Part shown: in pieces, positions 602 to 23,933 of the stretch
How the letters are laid out: each line of letters begins with the position of its first letter
How positions within the stretch are numbered: position 1 is the first letter of the stretch
IMG/VR virus record: IMGVR_UViG_3300031251_000100
Coordinates: 1 to 24,104 of that record
Origin: a virus
Direction: 5' to 3' (one strand)
Length of the DNA stretch: 24,104 nt
Program-made: the position numbers and the translations under genes
Notes under the pieces: model-generated
What the model was told of the DNA's origin: nothing
Database searches by the model: none
The model's input: the letters and a program-made list of their open reading frames with translations, nothing else

Positions 602-631
602 CATCTAGCACCACGATCTAATAGGTGTCAA
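602..631 (-). promoter_or_regulatory. promoter-like element before the DUF2460 gene
   Basis: On the minus strand a perfect TTGACA (631..626) begins the sequence TTGACACCTATTAGATCGTG. No good -10 hexamer follows: TAGATG at 18-bp spacing is the best match. I flag it because the element lies in the only gap between two tail genes. It also shares TTGACACC-N8-CGTG in the same register with the promoter at 22399-22427, and TTAGATC with the promoter at 16771-16799. A phage promoter driving tail-tip genes is an inference. Confidence 0.45.
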
Positions 632-640
632 GGTAATAGA

Positions 641-3600
641 CTACCTACCTAGGCGGGATAGCCCGAGATGGCCGCCCGTGCGCACACTTTCATTCAATGA
701 TTTGGCAATTGCCTTCCCGTGCTCCTTGAAGAATTGGTGGACGCTGCGCGAATCCATGGCGCTTACATTGAAATGGGTGTGGTGATGAACGCCGCCGCCC
801 CCCGCTGCGCCCCCCGCGCCTCCTACAGCGGACGACCCGCTACGGATTGCGCCTGCCTGCGCGGCCGGAATAATCATCTCGCCCTTGTGAACCTGGGCGA
901 TCATATCGTTGGGCAGCTCCCAAGAACCGCTGGCGAACGCTGGGAGCCCTATCGCCCCAAGCGCTAGGGTGGCGATGCCTCCGATCCCGCCGGGAAGGGC
1001 TAGGAGGGCCATCTGGGCTAGCCAGTTCGCGACAATCTTAGCGACGGCCTGGGCGAACATGCCTATGATGCTATCCAGAACATTTCTAACGGCATCCCTT
1101 AATTTTTGATGCTGCGTAATAATGCCTGTAAAAGCGGTGGCAACCGTTGAAGTTACAGAGCCGAAGACTTGCTGATATTGAGCGGCTACTTTTTCGGTCG
1201 CCTTCGCTTGCTCGTCAGCTATTTTCTTCGCGTATTCCGCGTCAACCTCTGCCTTTTTCTGGCTGTACTCCCTAAATTTCGTCAGGTCATCGGTGTATAG
1301 CGAGGACAGCTTACCGTAATGCGCGGTGTCTGCGGCTTCTTCCTTTTTATATAGGTCGATAATTTCTTGAGCGCCCTTGGAGAAAGAGATCGTCTTCTCC
1401 TGAACAGCGGCCTTTACATTGTCGATACTCGTTTCTAGGGACTTTTTCTCCGCATTCCAGCGGACGTTCTCCTCCTCTGCTTGGTTAGCCGTCTGCTGCT
1501 TATCGTAGGCGTCCTGAATTTGAAGCTTCTGCGCCTCGAATTCCTGAAACTTGGCCCCGTTGGGATCATTCGCGTAAGGCGCCTGCTCGACATTCACGGC
1601 GCCAAGTTTGGCGTTGAGTTCTTCCTTGCTGCCTTTGGTTGACCTCGCGTCCTCCAGATCAAATGACGCCTTTTTAGCGGCCGTAACCTTTTCGGTAAGC
1701 GCCGCCTCATCCTGTAGCAACTTCAATTTCGCCGTGCGGAATTTGGCGGAGTTCTGATCCGTCGCGCCGATATCTTTTAGGGCGGCAAGCTCTTTCTGGT
1801 CCGCCTCGACCATATCCCGAGCGGCTTTTACTTCGTTGATATTGCCGGCGGCGCGCGCCTCCAGTATGGCGAGCTGCGCTTGTTCAATAGCCGTGCCGCC
1901 GGAGCGCGCGTCAGCCTGGTCCTTGATCGATTCCCTGATTTTTTGCTGCTTATCGAGTTCGTCACCGACGGCCGCATTCATCGTGCCCTGCGACGAGACA
2001 TTCGCGGCCTCGGCGGCGCGGCGATCTGCATTGATGCCGCCGTTGTCCCCTTGGTGGGAGAGGATCGACGAAGATATCTGGCCCGAATCCCCTGTGCGCG
2101 CGGCCGCCGCAATATTGGCCGGAAGGTGCCCGTAATTATAAGCGATCGACGTTAGAGACGCTTTGGCCTGGTCGGACAATTTGGCCCATTCGGGTCCGAC
2201 GTCTTTGGCCGCTTGGTTCGTGAATTCCACGACCCGGCGCGCGAGGTCGCGCTGCGCATCGACGATCGTGGTCACGGTGTCCGCTACGACCGCGTGAACC
2301 TTCCCCGTCTCGTCGGTCGTCGTATCAGAACCATACCCCGCCCGGTATGCGTTCACGTCGTACTTCGCGGTCGGCTGGAACCCTTCAAACTGCTTGATCA
2401 ATGCCGTGGCGTCAGCCGTTCCGCCTGTCGCGCCGCCGGCAGCCCCGATCCCGCCGCTCGATATCGCCTTCAACCCTTGCTGGAGCTTTTCGACCTTGTC
2501 GATCGACTCCTGCAATTGCTGCGGAAGCGTATTTTCCTTGATGGTCAGGTTGTTGGCGTCGGCGATGACGTTTTTCAAGCGGGAGGAAAGGTCCTGCGCG
2601 CTCTTAGCCGCCTGTTCGAGTAGGGTGCTGGCAGAAGTAAGCGCCCGGCCGAAGTCATGCGTCGCCGCTGCGCCAACTTGCGCAAAAGTACCGAATCTAA
2701 AGAACTGCGAAGCGGCCGCAAGCATCCGCTCGCCAAAAGTTGTTGTCTCCGCAGAGGTGCCCTTGATCGCATCTTCGGTTCGTTTGAAGGCCGCAGCCAA
2801 ATGGCCGAGAATAACCGACCGCGCTTCATCGGCGTCGCCGGACTGCTGCGCCGTGTCGAGAGCTTGGGACTCTGCAAGAGACAAGGCCCCGAAGGATTCC
2901 GCCAACGCCTTACCGGCGGTGAATGGCTTATCCATCGCCGCGCTCATATTGGCCATCGCTGTCGGGATATCGGTCCCCGATATTTCGGCCAGCGGCTGAA
3001 TGGATTTCTCTATCGCAAGCGCTATTACACCAGAGGTGTCACCAATCTTAACGGCTACCGAAGATATTGCCGCAGACGCCTCTGATGTAGCGTCCGGGAT
3101 ACCCGCGAATCCTTCTTGGAGCGTTTTAATAGCCGCCAGCGTGGAGTTATTTCCGGCGGCAGCAGATTGCCGAAATAGACTCTGGGTCTGCTCCTTGAAT
3201 TCGAAAATCTTCGCGCTTAGGTAGCCAAGGTATCCTACCGCGATCGCAACCTCGCCGACGAAGGCAACGAGGCCAATTTTTGCGGCGGAGAAGGCGCCTG
3301 CGCTTTGCAATGCGGTGATCGTCACATTGGCGAGAGTGCCTTGCATCTGCCCGAAGCGGCCGGCGAGAGCCTCGTCGGTGATCGCGTGGCCTTCACGAAC
3401 ATAGAAGCCTAGTCCCGCCCCCGCGCGCTTGGCCTCCCCGCCGACGCCGTTGAGCTTCTTGCCGACTTTGTCCAGCTCGCCGCCGAACGCCGCCGTTATC
3501 TCGGCCGCTTCGATACCGGCCAGTTTGGATTGCTGTAGAGCCTGGAGATACCCGCCGAAGGCAGCCCCCGAGAGGGAGCTGGTCGGTCCCTGCCCGGCCC

Positions 3601-3979
3601 GCGTCGTTCCTTGAAAGCTTTTGCTGGTACGGTCGGCGGCCGCAACTTTTTCTGCCCTGTTTAACTGTTCCGTTTCTTTGTAAAGCTTGCTTGTCGCGAC
3701 AGCCTGGGCGAGGAGCGCTTTGGCGTTATCCTGCGCGGCCTTCGCTGCCTTCGCGTCCTCGACGCTCGTTCCCTTAAGAGAATCCTGCAACTCCTTGAGC
3801 TGCGCGGCCGCTCGCCCAGCGGCCAACGATGCGTCGTCTAGCTCGCGGCGCATAATATCTCCACCGACGCCTCGGGCAACGAGGTCGGAGAGTTCCTTTA
3901 CGGTGTTGTTGAAGGATTTGAGATTGGCTTGGGCCTGCGCGATCTCGGCCCTAATCTGAATGCTGACATCGTCTGCCAT
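641..3979 (-). CDS. tail tape measure protein with internal lysozyme-like domain
   Basis: A protein of 1112 residues, the longest in the window, located between the tail chaperones and the DUF2460 gene: the standard place for the tape measure protein, which sets tail length and is ejected into the host. The first 150 residues and residues 690-960 are charged and alanine-rich, predicted coiled coil. Hydrophobic stretches lie around residues 230-255 and 985-1015. The C-terminus contains a Gly-rich stretch, HHHTHFNVSAMDSRSVHQFF and KSLNES, typical of lambdoid and GTA-like tape measure proteins. Residues about 525-660 look like a T4-lysozyme-type (GH24-like) domain: IKQFEG, then AYRAGYGSDTTT in the position of the family's GYGHT, then SLTSIAYNYG. 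Such muralidase insertions in tape measure proteins help local cell-wall penetration. The start ATG follows the T chaperone stop by 18 bases. Assuming about 1.5 angstrom per residue, the tail would be roughly 160-170 nm, an estimate only. Confidence 0.92.
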   Translation of the reverse strand: MADDVSIQIRAEIAQAQANLKSFNNTVKELSDLVARGVGGDIMRRELDDASLAAGRAAAQLKELQDSLKGTSVEDAKAAKAAQDNAKALLAQAVATSKLYKETEQLNRAEKVAAADRTSKSFQGTTRAGQGPTSSLSGAAFGGYLQALQQSKLAGIEAAEITAAFGGELDKVGKKLNGVGGEAKRAGAGLGFYVREGHAITDEALAGRFGQMQGTLANVTITALQSAGAFSAAKIGLVAFVGEVAIAVGYLGYLSAKIFEFKEQTQSLFRQSAAAGNNSTLAAIKTLQEGFAGIPDATSEASAAISSVAVKIGDTSGVIALAIEKSIQPLAEISGTDIPTAMANMSAAMDKPFTAGKALAESFGALSLAESQALDTAQQSGDADEARSVILGHLAAAFKRTEDAIKGTSAETTTFGERMLAAASQFFRFGTFAQVGAAATHDFGRALTSASTLLEQAAKSAQDLSSRLKNVIADANNLTIKENTLPQQLQESIDKVEKLQQGLKAISSGGIGAAGGATGGTADATALIKQFEGFQPTAKYDVNAYRAGYGSDTTTDETGKVHAVVADTVTTIVDAQRDLARRVVEFTNQAAKDVGPEWAKLSDQAKASLTSIAYNYGHLPANIAAAARTGDSGQISSSILSHQGDNGGINADRRAAEAANVSSQGTMNAAVGDELDKQQKIRESIKDQADARSGGTAIEQAQLAILEARAAGNINEVKAARDMVEADQKELAALKDIGATDQNSAKFRTAKLKLLQDEAALTEKVTAAKKASFDLEDARSTKGSKEELNAKLGAVNVEQAPYANDPNGAKFQEFEAQKLQIQDAYDKQQTANQAEEENVRWNAEKKSLETSIDNVKAAVQEKTISFSKGAQEIIDLYKKEEAADTAHYGKLSSLYTDDLTKFREYSQKKAEVDAEYAKKIADEQAKATEKVAAQYQQVFGSVTSTVATAFTGIITQHQKLRDAVRNVLDSIIGMFAQAVAKIVANWLAQMALLALPGGIGGIATLALGAIGLPAFASGSWELPNDMIAQVHKGEMIIPAAQAGAIRSGSSAVGGAGGAAGGGGVHHHTHFNVSAMDSRSVHQFFKEHGKAIAKSLNESVRTGGHLGLSRLGR

Positions 3980-3997: not shown

Positions 3998-4572
3998 CTA
4001 CATATTGTTCACGAACGCGCCTGGGATTTGGCCCATCAGATCTCCAATCCCACTCGGGTCATTCTGGTCTCTGGACTCGGTGACTTTCACCGCGTCCGTC
4101 TTTTTCTTCGAATCGCCCCCATGGACGTATTTCAATATCTCGTGCGTCGGAGGCCACTCGTTCCAATATTTGAACAAGGCCAGGACGTCCAACATCTCCA
4201 TCTCCCTGATTTGGTCCGGTGTGTAATGGCACACCGTCATCAGTCGGCAGTAGATGAACTCGAAATCTACTCGGCCGCCCCCGCTGGGGGCTCCGCTTCC
4301 CCCGGAGTTTTGTTCTCCAGGAACCCACCGAGACGAAGCACGGCGCCCATGGCCGCTGCGACTTGGTCGGTTGTCGCTTCAAAATCTCGGATTTTTTCCG
4401 AATCTTCCGGGTAGTCGCGACCTAGAGCAATTTTAACAATGGCGATTGAAAGGGGCATCGTGCTGCCGCCGGCCATGAGGATGGGTTCGATGTCTTCGAC
4501 CTGTCCCAACGTAAGCGGGCGGATGCTCCACTCTTTGTCGCCGAGGGTGATGGTGATTGGCTTTGCGCGCAT
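3998..4572 (-). CDS. tail assembly chaperone GT fusion made by -1 frameshift
   Basis: The 101-aa G-like frame (4267-4572) and the frame ending at 3998 lie in different phases. The downstream frame stays open back through the end of the G frame, reading G-S-G-A-P-S-G-G-G-R-V-D-F-E-F-I-Y-C-R-L-M before its first ATG at 4240. A single -1 shift near 4285-4303 joins them into a 191-aa product; 575 bases plus one re-read base gives exactly 192 codons. The best in-phase run is G GGG GAA at 4297-4303; G CCC CCA at 4285-4291 is a weaker option. In lambda and most long-tailed phages the G and GT proteins, made in this way, chaperone the tape measure protein during tail tube assembly. The T part (CHYTPDQIREMEMLD, YWNEWPPT) looks like that family. 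The site of slippage is inferred. Confidence 0.75.
4267..4572 (-). CDS. tail assembly chaperone, G-like (unshifted product)
   Basis: A 101-residue protein between the tail tube gene and the tape measure gene. It begins MRAKPITITLGDKEWSIRPL, a pattern seen in tail assembly chaperones of siphophages (short beta-rich start, then helices). It contains TLGQVEDIEPILMAGG and a helical end VAAAMGAVLRLGGFLE, followed by an acidic, Pro/Ala-rich tail. AAGGA upstream of the ATG at 4572 serves as ribosome binding site. By position and by the overlapping open -1 frame it is the counterpart of lambda gpG. The unshifted protein should be much more abundant than the GT fusion. The identification rests on synteny and overall shape rather than a catalytic motif. 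Confidence 0.78.
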   Translation of the reverse strand: MRAKPITITLGDKEWSIRPLTLGQVEDIEPILMAGGSTMPLSIAIVKIALGRDYPEDSEKIRDFEATTDQVAAAMGAVLRLGGFLENKTPGEAEPPAGAAE

Positions 4573-15385: not shown

Positions 15386-16033
15386 TCAGACATTCCGATC
15401 GTCAACACCGACATACTGAATGGGGATTCCTTCACCCCTCGTCTTTTCATCCAGCCCGTAGGCCACTCGTTCGAGACCCTGATGCCGGGTCATGATTCGG
15501 GAGATCGTTTCGGCGACGTCGGAGATATTCTGACGTGCTCCCATCAAAGGAGCCTCGACCAATTCCCCTTGTGCGTTCTCAATCACGATTGGTTTGCCAT
15601 CGAGCACGGCTTGGAGGCGGTCCATCATGGTCCGCAACATGCCGCTAAGGCGGCGCAGATCGCCGCGATGACCTTGCACAGCGGCGACGGCGGCTGCGGC
15701 CGCCCCCTGGATCATAATTTCCTGCTCTTGCGCGTACTTGGTGCTGGTCGGCGGGATGCCGTGGCCGGCGCCGACGGGCCGATTCTCTTTGTATTCGGTC
15801 AGGTGCTGCTCGGCGAGCCGATTTTGGACCGCGATATTGAAGCGGTCTTTAAGGTCTTGCTGCCACCCATGCTTGGCGGCATACCGGCTGAGAATATTTT
15901 CAGTGGTCCCGATGCGCTGGGCTATGATAGCTGTGGAGTAGGCCCCGGTGCGCCAAAGTTGCTTGCCGTAGATCCAATTGACCTTATTGCGCTTTTCAAC
16001 CTTGGGGACGACGGTTAATTCTGTGCTAGCCAT
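15386..16033 (-). CDS. terS: terminase small subunit (probable)
   Basis: A 215-residue protein just upstream of terL. Residues about 18-60 form a helix-turn-helix-like stretch: WIYGKQLWRTGAYSTAIIAQ, then RIGTTENILSRYAAKHGW, typical of small terminases that bind the packaging site. The middle is helical (LKDRFNIAVQNRLAEQHL, GAAAAAVAAVQGHRGDLRRL), suitable for oligomerisation. The C-terminal 30 residues are likely flexible. The stop lies 2 bases before the terL GTG. The role is well supported by position and the helix-turn-helix; sequence families of TerS vary widely, so no closer assignment is possible. Confidence 0.85.
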   Translation of the reverse strand: MASTELTVVPKVEKRNKVNWIYGKQLWRTGAYSTAIIAQRIGTTENILSRYAAKHGWQQDLKDRFNIAVQNRLAEQHLTEYKENRPVGAGHGIPPTSTKYAQEQEIMIQGAAAAAVAAVQGHRGDLRRLSGMLRTMMDRLQAVLDGKPIVIENAQGELVEAPLMGARQNISDVAETISRIMTRHQGLERVAYGLDEKTRGEGIPIQYVGVDDRNV

Positions 16034-16045
16034 TGGGACCTGTAA

Positions 16046-16375
16046 TTATGAATCGTATGAAATGTAGAAAACCGCTTGCCTATCCTGGCCCTGACCAACG
16101 ATCCGCATCTTGACGCGATCGGCCGATACCTTGGGCCATTTTAAAAGATGCTCGGCCCAATCGTAAGGCGCGCATCCGGACGCGACCGCCTTGTCGTGGA
16201 CTTGCTTCACCTTTGGATGGGCTTCTTCTGGGGTGACGTGCGATCGGTACCGAAGTAACTCGACCGCGTTGTCCATGATGCGCTCGGCCTTACCATTGCG
16301 CATATGGTCCAGGTCCACCAAACAGGCGTGTGGAACCATAGGGTAAGCGAAATTAAAGGCGTCCGAGTCGGTCAT
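16046..16375 (-). CDS. unknown protein, 109 aa
   Basis: A 109-residue protein whose ATG overlaps the preceding stop (ATGA at 16372-16375). It begins MTDSDAFNFAYPMVPHACLV and contains VELLRYRSHVTPEEAHPKVK, CAPYDWAEHLLKWPKVS and a strand-rich end MRIVGQGQDRQAVFYISYDS. No membrane segment, signal peptide or known catalytic motif is visible. As the second gene of the terminase operon it may assist packaging or be an unrelated small protein. The family is not recognised. Confidence 0.7.
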   Translation of the reverse strand: MTDSDAFNFAYPMVPHACLVDLDHMRNGKAERIMDNAVELLRYRSHVTPEEAHPKVKQVHDKAVASGCAPYDWAEHLLKWPKVSADRVKMRIVGQGQDRQAVFYISYDS

Positions 16376-16665
16376 CGGGACGCATGGAAATAATACACGG
16401 CTGGATCGCTCACTTTTGCGCCCAGGTGTGTAAGCCTCACCGACATTAGCTCGCAGTCTATGTATCCTTTTGATTTCGCGAATTTTTCTGCCTTTTCCAA
16501 GGTCGGCACGAAAGATCCCTCAAATTTCGATACCTTGATACGGAAGGTCATCGTCTCCGCGTCGTTAATCGGCTCGTAGATTACCGTCGGGACGGGTGGC
16601 GGTGGCGGCTCCGGGGGCAGAAAATGGCCCTTTAAAAGGTTCGTCCAATCAGGAAATGTCATCAT
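16372..16665 (-). CDS. unknown protein, 97 aa, first gene of the late operon
   Basis: I start this gene at the ATG pair 16665/16662 because GAGGA lies 8 bases upstream; an in-frame TTG at 16710 has no such site. The product begins MMTFPDWTNLLKGHFLPPEP, has a PPEPPPPPVPTVIYEP proline-rich linker, then a beta-rich region (MTFRIKVSKFEGSF) and a helix (LEKAEKFAKSKGYIDCEL). It has no recognised domain. It is the first gene after the promoter at 16771-16799, with a leader of about 100 bases that can form a long stem. The stop overlaps the 109-aa gene. Confidence 0.72.
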   Translation of the reverse strand: MMTFPDWTNLLKGHFLPPEPPPPPVPTVIYEPINDAETMTFRIKVSKFEGSFVPTLEKAEKFAKSKGYIDCELMSVRLTHLGAKVSDPAVYYFHASR

Positions 16666-16692
16666 TTCGTTTGTCCTCGTTGCGAGAGGGGT

Positions 16693-16762
16693 GCTGGCGG
16701 GGATGCCCAATAGATCGTTTCTGTATTATGGGAACTTGGGATCTTGCCGCGTCCCCGCCAGC
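16693..16762 (-). promoter_or_regulatory. 5' leader stem-loop of the terminase operon
   Basis: On the minus strand GCTGGCGGGGA (16762..16752) is a perfect 11-base complement of TCCCCGCCAGC (16703..16693). Inside it CCCAA (16740..16736) can pair with TTGGG (16710..16706). The transcript from the adjacent promoter should begin near 16764, so this stem would sit at the very 5' end of the mRNA. 5'-terminal stems commonly protect phage late mRNAs from decay; that function here is inferred. The ribosome binding site of the first gene lies about 20 bases further on and is left free. Confidence 0.65.
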
Positions 16763-16770
16763 TCCATACC

Positions 16771-16799
16771 CTTATAGACTATGATCTAAGACGGGTCAA
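16771..16799 (-). promoter_or_regulatory. sigma70-type promoter for the packaging/head/tail operon
   Basis: TTGACC (16799..16794), a 17-base spacer and TATAAG (16776..16771) match the sigma70 consensus at 5 of 6 positions in each box. Transcription would start near 16764 and run into the terminase genes. The -35 box lies only 10 bases after the T tract of the upstream terminator, so one transcription unit ends and the next begins within about 50 bases. It resembles the promoter at 22399-22427 (same spacing, TCTAAG). Confidence 0.75.
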
Positions 16800-16809
16800 G
16801 GAATGCTTG

Positions 16810-16841
16810 AAAAATAAGGGGCCGCCGTTTAAGGCAGCCCC
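16810..16841 (-). terminator. intrinsic terminator of the ncRNA unit
   Basis: On the minus strand a 9-bp GC-rich stem (GGGGCTGCC / GGCGGCCCC, one G-U pair) with loop TTAAAC is followed at once by TTATTTTT. This is a standard Rho-independent terminator for RNA read from the right. It starts 2-3 bases after the 3' strand of the 9-bp long-range helix of the putative ncRNA, and would also stop read-through from phoH. Confidence 0.85.
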
Positions 16842-17326
16842 CTGTTTCGGTTTCCACTTAGCCTTGCGGCGTATCCCGCATCACGCGTTGACCGGCCCTA
16901 CGACCGGCGGGGGAGCGCTTTTCACAACCGAGCTATCACTCCAATGTCCCCAGGGGATTTGCGCGAGCGCAGTGATCGTTGCCTGTGGCGCACATTTAGA
17001 GGGCGGCTAGGATTTTAGACCTAGCCGCCCCTGCCCCTCGTTTTCTCACCTGAGCGGGACTACCCCAGGGCAACACCCTATCCGGGAGGGAAAAGGACAA
17101 ACCTTCACCGGCGGGCTGAGATCATCCGGGGCTCCGTAAGATAGGGACGCCATCCGGGAAGTGCAATCTTGACGTGTATCACGCCTTATAGACCGCGTCA
17201 ACTATTTCATGGGGGTGGCCGTCTTTCCGGCCTGCCATCGGTTTATCAGCCTTTCAACTGATCGATCTCCCATGGGAGAGTCCGCTACTTATTCGCGGCC
17301 TTGGGGCACCCAACCGAAACCCTCGC
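16810..17326 (-). ncRNA. candidate large structured non-coding RNA, about 515 nt
   Basis: No convincing minus-strand protein frame exists here, but complementary segments are dense. The ends pair: 17320..17312 (GTTTCGGTT) with 16852..16844 (AACCGAAAC), 9 perfect pairs closing about 460 bases. Inside, in order: hairpin 17279-17266 (TCTCC-CATG-GGAGA); bulged hairpin 17266-17237 (AUCAG/CUGAU plus AUCG/CGAU); hairpin 17232-17217 (GGCCG/CGGCC); 17201-17169 (TTGACG/CGTCAA); 17146-17140 with 17082-17076 (CCCTATC/GATAGGG); 17072-17067 with 17037-17032, enclosing two smaller stems; an 11-bp hairpin 17030-17001; and a three-way junction 16976-16935 (AUCACU/AGUGAU around two hairpins). A promoter-like TTGACA precedes it and an intrinsic terminator follows directly. 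In size and architecture it recalls the large phage RNAs GOLLD and ROOL, but I see no sequence signature of either. Not RNase P, tmRNA or a riboswitch that I recognise. Confidence 0.65.
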
Positions 17327-17332
17327 CTTCCC

Positions 17333-17361
17333 TACCTAATAGATGTTTAACCTATTGTCAA
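17333..17361 (-). promoter_or_regulatory. promoter-like element for the structured RNA
   Basis: TTGACA (17361..17356) begins on the base after the phoH stop codon. At 17-base spacing the -10 would be TAGGTA, a poor match; TATTAG is closer to consensus but only 14 bases away. If used, RNA would start near 17326, a few bases before the 5' strand of the long-range helix. The -35 is perfect, the -10 weak, so I hold this at moderate confidence. Confidence 0.45.
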
Positions 17362-18126
17362 TTATAAAAATCCGAGCACGTCAGCGACGATCGGATCCCT
17401 CTGCACGTCTTTCCTGTCCAATCGGATGACGGGATACCCGTGGTCCTCGAAGCGCTGGAGCGCCTCGCCGAGCCCGCTGCGCGCGCCGAGGTCTGATTGC
17501 TCCGTGTCTCCGGTGATGGTCATCGAGGACCCTTCGCCGAGGCGCGTCACAACCATCTTGATTTGGGAGAGCGTCGCGTTCTGCATTTCGTCGGCGACGA
17601 TCGCCGCCTTGCGCAGGGTCCGGCCCCGCATCATGCCGATCGGGATTATTTCAAGCATCCCGTCGCGAAACCATCCTTCGATTGTCCGGGTGGCGTTGGA
17701 GCCTCCGCCGATCTTGTTGGAAAGTTCGTCCATAAGCGGCTGGAGGTATCCGGCGAGCTTCTCGCGCACGGTGCCGGGGAGCGCTCCGATGTCCTCGTCC
17801 GCCGGAACGGCGGGGCGGCAGAACACCATCTTGTCAACTTGCTTGGAGAGGAAGAGATCGGCGGCGCGATCGACCGCAAGGAGGGTTTTACCGGTGCCGG
17901 CGGGGCCGCAGGCGAACACAAGACGGTTCTCGGCGAGGGCGGCTTTTAATTGGCGCTGACCCTCTGATTTTGGGTGAAAATATGCGATTTTTTGTGAAAA
18001 AGGCTCTTTGGCCGTGTTGTTTTTGGTGTATTTTTCGACTTTTTGTGAAAAATCCTCCCTATTTTGGTTCTGAGCTAACGTTTTTCGACGGTCCCGACGA
18101 TTCTGTCGGGCTCCGGATCCTGCCAT
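17362..18126 (-). CDS. phoH: PhoH-family ATPase
   Basis: A 254-residue PhoH-like P-loop protein. Walker A is GPAGTGKT (residues 74-81), Walker B AAIVADE (174-180) followed by MQNAT, and a late GDTEQSD (206-212) with arginine-rich LDRKDVQRD near the end: all family hallmarks. FCRPAVPADEDIGALPG (102-118) is also typical. The first 50 residues are basic and carry two FSQK units, coded by DNA with repeated TTTTTGTGAAAA-like strings (17985-18050 on the plus strand). PhoH proteins are common in phages; they are predicted RNA-associated ATPases/helicases, with no settled phage function. GGAG lies 7 bases before the ATG. Its neighbour downstream is the structured RNA candidate, which is notable given the suspected RNA link of the family. 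Confidence 0.95.
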   Translation of the reverse strand: MAGSGARQNRRDRRKTLAQNQNREDFSQKVEKYTKNNTAKEPFSQKIAYFHPKSEGQRQLKAALAENRLVFACGPAGTGKTLLAVDRAADLFLSKQVDKMVFCRPAVPADEDIGALPGTVREKLAGYLQPLMDELSNKIGGGSNATRTIEGWFRDGMLEIIPIGMMRGRTLRKAAIVADEMQNATLSQIKMVVTRLGEGSSMTITGDTEQSDLGARSGLGEALQRFEDHGYPVIRLDRKDVQRDPIVADVLGFL

Positions 18127-18149
18127 TGAGGCACTCCCTAGAACTTAGA

Positions 18150-18169
18150 CCGGGTATCCTACAACCCGG
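18150..18169 (-). promoter_or_regulatory. hairpin in the phoH leader
   Basis: CCGGGT and ACCCGG form a 6-bp stem with an 8-base loop between the promoter-like element at 18173-18201 and the phoH ribosome binding site. No T tract follows, so it is not an intrinsic terminator. It may be a leader structure; function unknown. Confidence 0.5.
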
Positions 18170-18172
18170 CCC

Positions 18173-18203
18173 ACAATGCTTGATTTGACGGGTGATGTCA
18201 AAT
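18173..18203 (-). promoter_or_regulatory. phoH promoter-like element overlapped by inverted repeat
   Basis: TTGACA (18201..18196) with 17-base spacing to CATTGT (18178..18173), a weak -10. The -35 box is embedded in a perfect 7-bp inverted repeat ATTTGAC-N7-GTCAAAT (18183-18203), which looks like an operator or a small hairpin right after the stop of the upstream MazG-like gene. A regulated promoter for phoH is possible. Confidence 0.45.
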
Positions 18204-18667
18204 TACGGCTGCGCTTCCGCCTCGGCCAAAAGTGCGCTCTCCGCCAAACTAATCCAATATTTCCGAGTCTGTAGGTTAGTCGCAAACCATGCCTGCTGTG
18301 CAGCGTACGTGCCCCGCAGTCCCAAGTCCCGACAGAACATCTCTAATGCTTTGTCGGTGATAAGGTAACTTTGGTTCTTGTCGACGAACCGGTCCATAGA
18401 TCCGATCATCTTGATCGCGACGGCCGCGACTTGAACCAGCTCGACGCGCAGATCGGCCTCTGACCGCTTGGATCGCTTCTGCTTCACGATGTCCCAGACC
18501 TCGTCAACTTCTTCGGCGAGAACCGCGTATGCCTCGTGAAGGCTGGCATATTTGCCGCCGTGGACCTTGGCGCGATTGAGTTCAGCGAGAACCTCGGCGA
18601 TCGCGTCTGGGGCCGCAATGACTTCGCTCACAACGCCGCCAGTAGCATGTAGCAGATAGTCGCTCAT
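18203..18667 (-). CDS. MazG-like nucleotide pyrophosphohydrolase-family protein
   Basis: A 154-residue protein from the ATG at 18667, which overlaps the stop of the 52-aa gene (ATGA) and has GAGG just upstream; the longer frame to 18727 has no supporting site. Residues 34-90 (HGGKYASLHEAYAVLAEEVD, EVWDIVKQKR, LRVELVQVAAVAIKMI) match phage MazG-like proteins. The first motif E52-E53-x-x-E56 is intact. The second, usually E-x-x-D, reads E76-L-V-Q79, so one metal-binding Asp is replaced by Gln. A tail of about 60 residues follows (EMFCRDLGLRGTYAAQQAW). Canonical MazG enzymes cleave NTPs/dNTPs to monophosphates; activity here is uncertain because of the change. Confidence 0.72.
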   Translation of the reverse strand: MSDYLLHATGGVVSEVIAAPDAIAEVLAELNRAKVHGGKYASLHEAYAVLAEEVDEVWDIVKQKRSKRSEADLRVELVQVAAVAIKMIGSMDRFVDKNQSYLITDKALEMFCRDLGLRGTYAAQQAWFATNLQTRKYWISLAESALLAEAEAQP

Positions 18668-18830: not shown

Positions 18831-19340
18831 CTATTTTGCGAGTGGGTGGCTTAGAACGGGCACGTAGGCCCCTTTAAGACCGGAGTTGTAGAGACGCCGC
18901 CTAGCCTCTTCGCCATATGCGACAAGGCAGCTCGGGGCGCCGGCGTTCGCCTTCGCGCGGCGGCCGTCCGGATAGTGGAAGTGCAGGCGTCCTTCGAAGA
19001 ACATGACTGCCTTGGCGGTCGCCGAATTCCACACGGAGTCGAAGAAGTATTTGGTCTCGGTGCGCGCGAAGATAAGCGCGATGCCATTGCCATGAGCCGA
19101 CATCCTCGCTAGCCATTCGGCGGCCTCGCGCCCATATGGCGGGTTGCACCAAACGAAGTGTTGCCACCAAACGGCTTCAAGACCGTTTTCTGGCAAGCAG
19201 ATATGGCGCTTCGCGGTGGGCCACGGGCGCGGCTCGGGCGCAGCGCAGGGGTCCAGATCGAAGGGTCCTAGCGCCTCGATGATCTCGGGCGGTGTCAGCC
19301 ACGTCGTCGTTTTGGCCTTGGCCGACTGATGGCTGCCCAT
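18831..19340 (-). CDS. Dam-type DNA N6-adenine methyltransferase
   Basis: A 169-residue protein from the ATG at 19340 (MGSHQSAKAK); the longer frame to 19403 would overlap the Tad2-like gene and lacks a better site. It has WLTPPEIIEALGPFDLDPCA (residues 14-33), the SAM-site and entry motif of phage Dam (PF05869) proteins, and the catalytic-type NPPY at 66-69 within HFVWCNPPYGREAAEWLA. Later FARTETKYFFDSVW and LHFHYPDGRR also fit. Phage Dam enzymes methylate adenine in phage DNA, often protecting against host restriction; target sequence unknown (GATC is typical for the family). It lies 10 bases after the Tad2-like gene. Size is usual for the compact phage type. Confidence 0.9.
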   Translation of the reverse strand: MGSHQSAKAKTTTWLTPPEIIEALGPFDLDPCAAPEPRPWPTAKRHICLPENGLEAVWWQHFVWCNPPYGREAAEWLARMSAHGNGIALIFARTETKYFFDSVWNSATAKAVMFFEGRLHFHYPDGRRAKANAGAPSCLVAYGEEARRRLYNSGLKGAYVPVLSHPLAK

Positions 19341-19350
19341 GGTTCGCTTC

Positions 19351-19575
19351 TTAGCCAACGAACAGGTTCCAATCTTCTGCGAGCACGTCGGTCTGCGAGG
19401 CAAGCCACGGCACGAGTGCGCCTGTCACCGTGGACATATAAATATATGGCAAACCCATCTTGGAATGAGCGTCTGGAACTTGTAGGGCAATCCACATGCC
19501 TTTTCCGTTCCAGCCCTCGCGGGCCACTCGATTACCATCCTTCAATAGTTCTAACGCTTCGCCAAAATTCATCAT
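19351..19575 (-). CDS. DUF2829 / Tad2-like protein, candidate anti-Thoeris
   Basis: A 74-residue protein with the full DUF2829 pattern: MNFGEALELLKDGNRVAREG, then W-N-G-K-G-M-W-I, LPYIYMSTVTGALVPWLASQ and TDVLAEDWNLF. Tad2 proteins of this family sequester the signalling nucleotide made by the Thoeris ThsB TIR protein and so block abortive defence. The length equals that of compact family members. CAGGAG precedes two adjacent ATGs (19575 and 19572); the second has better spacing. It sits just before a DNA methyltransferase, which would give two anti-defence genes side by side. Family membership is strong; the binding activity is inferred from the family. Confidence 0.88.
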   Translation of the reverse strand: MMNFGEALELLKDGNRVAREGWNGKGMWIALQVPDAHSKMGLPYIYMSTVTGALVPWLASQTDVLAEDWNLFVG

Positions 19576-22398: not shown

Positions 22399-22427
22399 CT
22401 TAGATCACACGTCTATAATGGTGTCAA
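22399..22427 (-). promoter_or_regulatory. sigma70-type promoter of the early/accessory operon
   Basis: TTGACA (22427..22422), 17-base spacer, TCTAAG (22404..22399): perfect -35 and 4 of 6 at the -10. Transcription starting near 22392 would lead into the 53-aa gene and the chain of small genes beyond. Same spacing as the promoter at 16771-16799. Confidence 0.65.
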
Positions 22428-22478: not shown

Positions 22479-23933
22479 TTATTGCGGTACGATCTGCACC
22501 CCAACTATCCCGCCGCCCGAACCGAGTGTTTCATAGACCTTGAAGCTGGTTCCAGTAATGCCGGGGAAAACGACATAATTCGCGGCGACGGGAGGGTTTG
22601 CCGCCGCAACGAATCCGGTAACACTGGCGCTTGGAAAGGATACCGTGGAACCGCCCGTGAACATTGTGCCGCTGGGTGTGCCATTGATATTGATGCTTCC
22701 CGCGCCGCCCTCAAAATAAACATAAACATTATAGGTCGCGAAGGGCACACCCGTTGCGCCGACATAGGCGTACCAACCACTATTTGAACCGCCATAGGCA
22801 AACAGAGCGCTGCTATAGAGATCACCATTTCCAAGGGCGTTCGTGGTGAAATTGTAGCCGCCAAAGCCCCAGTGCCCACCACTACCGTTTGCGCCCCATG
22901 CGACGGCCATACCGGGGACTGTGTTGCCGCCGCTGTCTTTTACCGTCGCGAGATTTCCGCTGAGTGGATTTGCGCTAGTATTGTTCCAATTGCTTTGCGG
23001 GACTACGCCTGCCAAGGCAGTCGCCGGGATAGGTATCCCATCCATGGAAAAATCAATGCCAACGGGCAATTTCGAAACCGGAAGCGAGTAAGCCCTAACC
23101 CAATCCACATCGAGATGCGAATTGTTCACCGCGCCGGACAGGGGCCAGCCGCCGCCCAGAGCATAATCCACCATCATGTAAAATGGGCTGGTCATGTGGC
23201 TTGTCGGCGTGGCGATTTGATTGGTTTGGACGCCGTCAATGTACCATGTGATGGAATCTGGCCGGACAAGAATGCCGTAATTATGAAAGGCCGACCAAGG
23301 CGCGGTCGAGTCGGGCATCGGAGTTTGCGGCTTATAAAGGTAGGGCAATGTCAGGTCTTGCGAACCATCAACGTTCCAGTTGTGCGAAGCTTGCTGTACA
23401 ACGCCAGGGACTTGATCATGCGCAACGCCGTACCATTCGAAGACGTCGAGTTCCTCTCCAGGGAGACCATTCTTTATCGCAGGAATGCCGCCCGTCTGCC
23501 CCAACCAGAATGCGGGCCATGAGCCCGAAGCGGAATTTGGCATCCGAGCGCGGATCTCGAAATATCCCCATTGCTGAGAAAAACCAGCGCCGGTTGTGTC
23601 CACTGAGGAGAGATTGCCCGAGTGCCAGGCTCCGCCGGAGTCGGTGAAGGCTTTATCGGAGAGGATGCCGCCAGAGACACTAAATGCCGAAGCATCCCAT
23701 ACCGACGCGGAGTATGCGGCCGCCGCACCATATGGCGGCCAATAATACCATGTTGCCGGAGATTTAGGCGACACCGTTGCGACGCTAAGAGTGTTGAACT
23801 CGTCCGAAAAAGTGAGGGTATAGCCGGTCAAGTCAATATCGCCGGGCGAGCAAATTGGTGCGAGCGGCGCGGCGATCGCCGGGCTAGCACAGGCGATCAA
23901 CCAAAGGGCTATTAACGTGCGTGGCATTTTCAT
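22479..23933 (-). CDS. secreted GH16-family glycoside hydrolase
   Basis: A 484-residue protein. Residues 1-22 form a signal peptide (LIALWLIACASPAIAA); LIAC at 12-15 also resembles a lipobox, so a lipoprotein is possible. Residues about 35-285 are a GH16 domain: LTFSDEFNTLS, WGYFEIRARMP, SWPAFWLG, then the catalytic signature E161-L-D163-V-F-E166, followed by HNYGILVRPDSITWYIDG and LDVDWVRAY. GH16 enzymes cut beta-1,3/1,4 glucans, galactans or similar polymers. Residues 290-484 are a beta-sandwich-like domain (GVVPQSNWNNTS, YNVYVYFEGG), possibly carbohydrate-binding. The ATG directly follows the upstream stop. A phage GH16 with an export signal could degrade host exopolysaccharide or be a lysogenic-type cargo gene; the substrate is unknown. 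Confidence 0.9.
   Translation of the reverse strand: MKMPRTLIALWLIACASPAIAAPLAPICSPGDIDLTGYTLTFSDEFNTLSVATVSPKSPATWYYWPPYGAAAAYSASVWDASAFSVSGGILSDKAFTDSGGAWHSGNLSSVDTTGAGFSQQWGYFEIRARMPNSASGSWPAFWLGQTGGIPAIKNGLPGEELDVFEWYGVAHDQVPGVVQQASHNWNVDGSQDLTLPYLYKPQTPMPDSTAPWSAFHNYGILVRPDSITWYIDGVQTNQIATPTSHMTSPFYMMVDYALGGGWPLSGAVNNSHLDVDWVRAYSLPVSKLPVGIDFSMDGIPIPATALAGVVPQSNWNNTSANPLSGNLATVKDSGGNTVPGMAVAWGANGSGGHWGFGGYNFTTNALGNGDLYSSALFAYGGSNSGWYAYVGATGVPFATYNVYVYFEGGAGSININGTPSGTMFTGGSTVSFPSASVTGFVAAANPPVAANYVVFPGITGTSFKVYETLGSGGGIVGVQIVPQ

Follow-up and report, generated by a model that had tools for sequence, protein, structure and literature searches.

On balance, the noncoding stretch that precedes this phage's packaging operon appears to be a terminated transcription unit with a hairpin core of about 60 nt, probably a regulatory RNA, and this reading is held with modest confidence. 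The best reading of the two available sequences is a new, small, two-member phage noncoding RNA that is terminated and lies ahead of the packaging operon.

The window, i.e. the whole stretch of DNA analysed, is the 24,104-base IMG/VR virus record IMGVR_UViG_3300031251_000100. It has no end repeats and is thus probably a fragment. All recognised phage genes of the window lie on the minus strand. The gene phoH occupies 17362-18126 (-) (PhoH, 9e-57 in Pfam) and is separated from the packaging operon by some 650 bases that hold no credible gene; the operon consists of two small genes without an assigned role followed by terS, terL and portal. The nearest TerL relatives are Hyphomicrobiales prophages, with matches of ~62% in Methylocapsa, Methylovirgula and other Beijerinckiaceae; the latter point to a host within the Hyphomicrobiales. 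Elsewhere, the window encodes a tape-measure protein of 1112 aa (641-3979 (-)) with endolysin-like residues 524-660 (PHROG 3572, 2.8e-10), a Dam-type DNA adenine methyltransferase (18831-19403 (-), Pfam 2.1e-10) and a glycosyl hydrolase family 16 protein (22479-23933 (-), Pfam 2.3e-14), perhaps a polysaccharide-degrading enzyme.

Boundaries and folding of the noncoding stretch

The features of the region are listed in the direction of the minus strand, with the basis of each in brackets; L082 is the relative described below.

17333-17361 (-): putative promoter P1, TTGACA (17361-17356), 17 nt, TAGGTA (17338-17333) (sequence)
16810-17326 (-): putative noncoding RNA, ~517 nt (no credible ORF, fold z = -4.0, no Rfam match)
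17312-17320 (-): 5' arm of the end helix, 9 bp, GUUUCGGUU (pair probability 0.89-0.99 for eight pairs)
17067-17153 (-): conserved core, stems GGCG:UGCC and CCCUA:UAGGG around GUGAAGGUUUGUCCUUUUCCCUCC (homology to L082 4427-4487)
17001-17030 (-): 11-bp hairpin, GGGCGGCUAGG / CCUAGCCGCCC (pair probability 0.99)
16844-16852 (-): 3' arm of the end helix, AACCGAAAC (pair probability)
16808-16843 (-): intrinsic terminator, 11 pairs, loop of 6, tail ATTTTT (terminator scan)
16771-16800 (-): promoter P2, CTTGAC-N17-CTATAAG, with TAGATCAT-AG-TCTATA inside (homologous promoter in L082, 4540-4568)
16693-16762 (-): leader hairpin of the packaging operon, 11-bp stem GCUGGCGGGGA / UCCCCGCCAGC (stem kept in L082)
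16675-16689 (-): hairpin at the ribosome-binding site, CCUC-UCGCAAC-GAGG (L082 counterpart CCUC-GCAACG-GAGG)

No minus-strand ORF longer than 51 aa was found inside 16810-17361, and the small ORFs on both strands of this region gave no family match in Pfam or PHROGs. The minus strand of 17326-16810 folded with -224.6 kcal/mol, corresponding to z = -4.0 against shuffled sequences with the terminator included. When the terminator was left out (17326-16843), z was -2.9 for the minus and -2.1 for the plus strand, compared with a mean of approx. -0.9 (range -2.3 to +1.2) for 16 control segments of 484 nt from elsewhere in the window. The region is unusually foldable, and more so on the minus strand, which is the proposed one, than on the plus strand. 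The three-way junctions inside the RNA are output of the fold model.

With the start of the RNA set at 17326, eight pairs of the end helix were predicted with probabilities of 0.89-0.99 and the ninth with 0.33; the helix was absent from the minimum free energy structure when the fold began at TTGACA. A perfect 9-mer complement is expected roughly 0.6-1 times by chance in 550 nt (our own estimate), and the helix is therefore informative mainly because it adjoins the terminator. The stem of the latter pairs within 16843-16816 and is followed by ATTTTT; it was the sole minus-strand site that the terminator scan listed in 15900-18250.

Most structural claims of the preliminary description were borne out: the ends (17320-17312 and 16852-16844) are exact 9-bp complements, the adjoining intrinsic terminator is real as a sequence feature (11-pair stem plus ATTTTT, listed by the scan), the 11-bp internal hairpin is present at 17030-17020/17011-17001, no credible minus-strand gene lies between phoH and the terminase operon, and the proposed comparison of folding energy with shuffles came out in favour of structure. 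A promoter of its own, which had also been claimed, was found in part. TTGACA is perfect and lies directly after the phoH stop, with an expected start at ~17326, but the -10 element TAGGTA is poor and P1 was not among the sites listed by the promoter scan. With a good -35 and a poor -10, P1 is half convincing as the promoter of a noncoding RNA. We infer that 17326-16810 is transcribed and that P1 is its promoter.

The conserved core and the syntenic relative

One syntenic virus, L082, was reached via TerL (a 78.5-kb contig); a second, L083, is identical to it over the 480 nt compared. The comparative evidence consists of two independent sequences, the window and L082. The proteins of L082 are 69% (portal), 68% (MCP), 65% (TerL) and 40% (TerS) identical to those of the window, and the small gene preceding terS 28%. 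No phoH was detected in L082, and the gene upstream of the unit differs from that of the window. In L082, the upstream operon ends in a strong terminator (4318-4345, terminator scan), after which a putative promoter TTGACA-N17-TACAAA (4353-4381) occupies the place equivalent to P1. The noncoding stretch equivalent to the RNA of the window comprises ~150-165 nt and on its own folds slightly better than its shuffles (z = -1.1). Its 3' hairpin CGGCGUUU/AAACGCCG has a weak T-run and was not listed as a terminator by the scan. Both phages share the order promoter, noncoding stretch, hairpin, P2, leader hairpin, hairpin at the ribosome-binding site and packaging genes.

The part shared by both stretches (window 17153-17067, L082 4427-4487) measures ~60 nt. 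Its local alignment score was 68 against 22.5 ± 3.3 for 1,000 shuffles, the best of which reached 36. Homology amounted to 50 bits with a model, R1, which has L082 itself among its members and is sequence-only because the MAFFT alignments A3 and A4 misplace the core stems. Folded separately, the two cores formed identical stems, GGCG:UGCC and CCCU:AGGG, and one compensatory A-U to G-C double change was observed in the stems between the two phages. The consensus energy of the core was -14.1 compared with -7.3 ± 2.4 for column shuffles, one out of 500 being as good; given that this alignment holds two sequences and was fitted by hand under guidance of the structure, the result is modest evidence. 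Across single-base indels that alter the reading frame of the core, TTTGTCC and GGGNGTTGCC remain conserved, in different frames, which favours a function as RNA or DNA over a peptide. With its shared hairpin, compensatory change and indels, the core seems to fit an RNA better than a protein.

No alignable relative was found for the remaining ~400 nt of the RNA in the window, so its large-scale fold is without comparative support. The 11-bp hairpin has no counterpart in L082. The interpretation of the preliminary description is thereby supported in part: a noncoding transcript with structure and a terminator remains the best reading, but a large RNA is not supported, the stretch of the relative being ~150-165 nt long with only ~60 nt conserved.

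The elements downstream of the terminator are kept as well. P2 of L082 reads TTGACATCGAATAGATCATCTTCTATACG. The leader hairpin of L082 has the stem CUGGCGGGG/CCCCGCCAG; relative to the window, an outer G-C pair is replaced by U-A, a double change, and the interior differs. The hairpin at 16675-16689 pairs the ribosome-binding site of the first gene of the packaging operon (ATG at 16665), and the structured leader (16675-16762 (-)) can be considered as a candidate for translational control.

A TAGA/TCTA dyad overlaps the -10 of P2 in the motif TAGATCA-N3/4-TCTATA. It was found twice in the window (16773-16788 (-) and 22401-22417 (+); 0.00 expected by shuffles), and the L082 contig, 78.5 kb long, has a single copy, at P2 (4552-4567). 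The motif is a possible phage operator. A promoter-like sequence CTTGACACCTATTAGATCGTGGTGCTAGATG resembling P2 lies at 603-632 (-), right after the tape-measure gene.

No further member was found in IMG/VR, INPHARED or ~1,180 alphaproteobacterial genomes. IMG/VR searches with DNA patterns for the core, P2 and the leader yielded only L082, L083 and matches without terS, terL or core; those of the off-target matches that were read looked coding-like by eye. TerS scans gave only L082 and L083; a weak TerS relative in one genome, L232, was not accompanied by any further related packaging gene. Relatives of TerL with 57-64% identity had different upstream genes and no core. Blastn against INPHARED found neither a close DNA relative nor a third member. 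R1 gave nothing above chance in 397, 397 and 385 genomes from the family, order and class of Methylocapsa, respectively, and nothing above chance for such numbers in 45 further genomes or records and ~120 loci; as it was built from two sequences only, distant members could be missed.

Rfam gave no hit at the gathering score in the whole window, with RNase P, tmRNA, riboswitches and introns included in the search, in agreement with the claim that signatures of RNase P, tmRNA and riboswitches are lacking. ARAGORN detected no tRNA or tmRNA in the 24-kb window. An identity as tRNA, tmRNA or another Rfam family was rejected in the absence of matches.

Proposed function and rival explanations

The transcript would start just past phoH (~17326) and end at the intrinsic terminator (~16810), with P2 and the operon's structured leader following immediately. 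The functional heart of the transcript would be a hairpin of ~60 nt that carries the conserved segment GUGAAGGUUU(U)GUCCUUU(U)CCCUCC, and the other ~400 nt would be particular to this one phage, perhaps a stabilising scaffold. Two modes of action may be envisaged. The exposed conserved segment may bind an RNA or protein target; alternatively, the terminated transcript, while nascent, may influence transcription into the packaging operon, comparable to the leader RNA of the lambda late promoter. We infer a regulatory function for the RNA. As only the ~60-nt core is common to one distant relative, a new regulatory RNA of small size is probable, rather than a further giant RNA cage.

The main rival, considered as unlikely, is a terminase recognition site in the DNA: the core, ~1 kb upstream of terS, would be a pac or cos site to which the terminase small subunit binds. 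Its position (~1.0 kb upstream of terS in the window and 0.9 kb in L082) and its conservation despite a different upstream neighbour gene are in line with such a site. The excess foldability of one strand, the flanking terminator and the shared hairpin with its compensatory change argue against it, and no array of direct or inverted repeats was recognised by eye.

Rather improbable is a cis-acting leader of the packaging operon, in which transcription from P1 or from farther upstream passes the terminator while the RNA either acts like HK022 put or loads a Q-like antiterminator. Promoter, structured RNA, terminator and late genes do follow in that order in both phages; still, the conserved P2 after the terminator can serve the operon alone.

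Antisense regulation is very doubtful. Here, GUUUGUCCU of the core would pair with AGGACAAAC at the ribosome-binding site of the first gene of the packaging operon, a perfect 9-nt complement in the window; of the 29 gene starts there, this one scores best (-26.9 kcal/mol). However, a U-rich run followed by CCU matches many ribosome-binding sites, the pairing is merely in the top 5% of window tiles, and the equivalent start ranks sixth of seven in L082. Conservation of this pairing in relatives was rejected accordingly.

A short conserved peptide (...PPVKVCPFPS... in the window, ...PAVKVLSFPS... in L082), starting from ATG GCG TCC in both frames, is given slightly less credence still. The frames can be aligned, with 7 of 14 residues matching in VKV..FPS.....P, but the alignment of the nucleotides requires indels that shift the frame, and the conserved TTTGTCC and GGGNGTTGCC are in different frames; neither ATG is preceded by a ribosome-binding site, and there is no family match in Pfam or PHROGs. 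A hidden protein gene was rejected, given the missing family match and a frame that is not kept. Least probable of all, and hardly credible, is a decayed gene or chance GC-rich spacer without function: ~400 of the 517 nt have no detectable relative and GC-rich sequence folds readily, but the terminator, the end helix and a core similarity far beyond chance contradict it.

Returning to the regulatory RNA, a more far-reaching version appears quite improbable, namely a new class of phage RNAs with a hairpin core before the packaging operon, in some phages expanded to an ornate RNA of ~500 nt, that controls or joins the late packaging programme. Structured RNAs are little charted in phages of soil Alphaproteobacteria. 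For the candidate, boundaries and a core motif are defined, and its place before the packaging operon is fixed. Should it regulate the packaging genes, the late programme would be controlled at the RNA level in a new way. With two sequences behind it, the candidate RNA may be regarded as a lead.

Comparison with known phage RNAs

At pR', the late promoter of lambda, a short noncoding leader RNA ('6S') is terminated intrinsically before the late-gene operon, and an antiterminator protein drives read-through. The putative RNA of the window would likewise be a noncoding transcript with an intrinsic terminator and a late-gene operon next to it. It differs in being longer and strongly folded and in having a second promoter after the terminator. 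Of the pR'-type layout, the terminator and the order are present in the window, P1 is weak and P2 follows.

The architecture had been likened to GOLLD and ROOL in the preliminary description, and this did not hold. Proximity to tRNA islands is frequent, not obligatory, for these RNAs, whose folds are broadly conserved (PMC12286853). They and the putative RNA of the window are alike in being large, noncoding and phage-borne, with paired ends (PMC12286853). Membership was nevertheless rejected: there was no covariance-model match (neither GOLLD nor ROOL was among the Rfam matches to the region at E<=10), the window has no tRNAs, and the fold is not conserved in L082, whose shorter version shares the 60-nt core.

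Lambda OOP is a small phage regulatory RNA antisense to cII (PMC12197685). It resembles the candidate as a short phage RNA with its own promoter, putative in the window, and a presumed regulatory role; unlike OOP, the candidate has nothing recognisable opposite to it. The put RNA of HK022, an element of the early genes, needs no phage protein to act on RNA polymerase in cis and suppresses downstream termination (PMC9378689). Both are structured phage RNAs near the start of a transcription unit (PMC9378689), whereas put belongs to early genes and suppresses termination further downstream and the RNA of the window directly precedes its terminator. By analogy, put could serve as a model for a cis-acting variant of the RNA described here.
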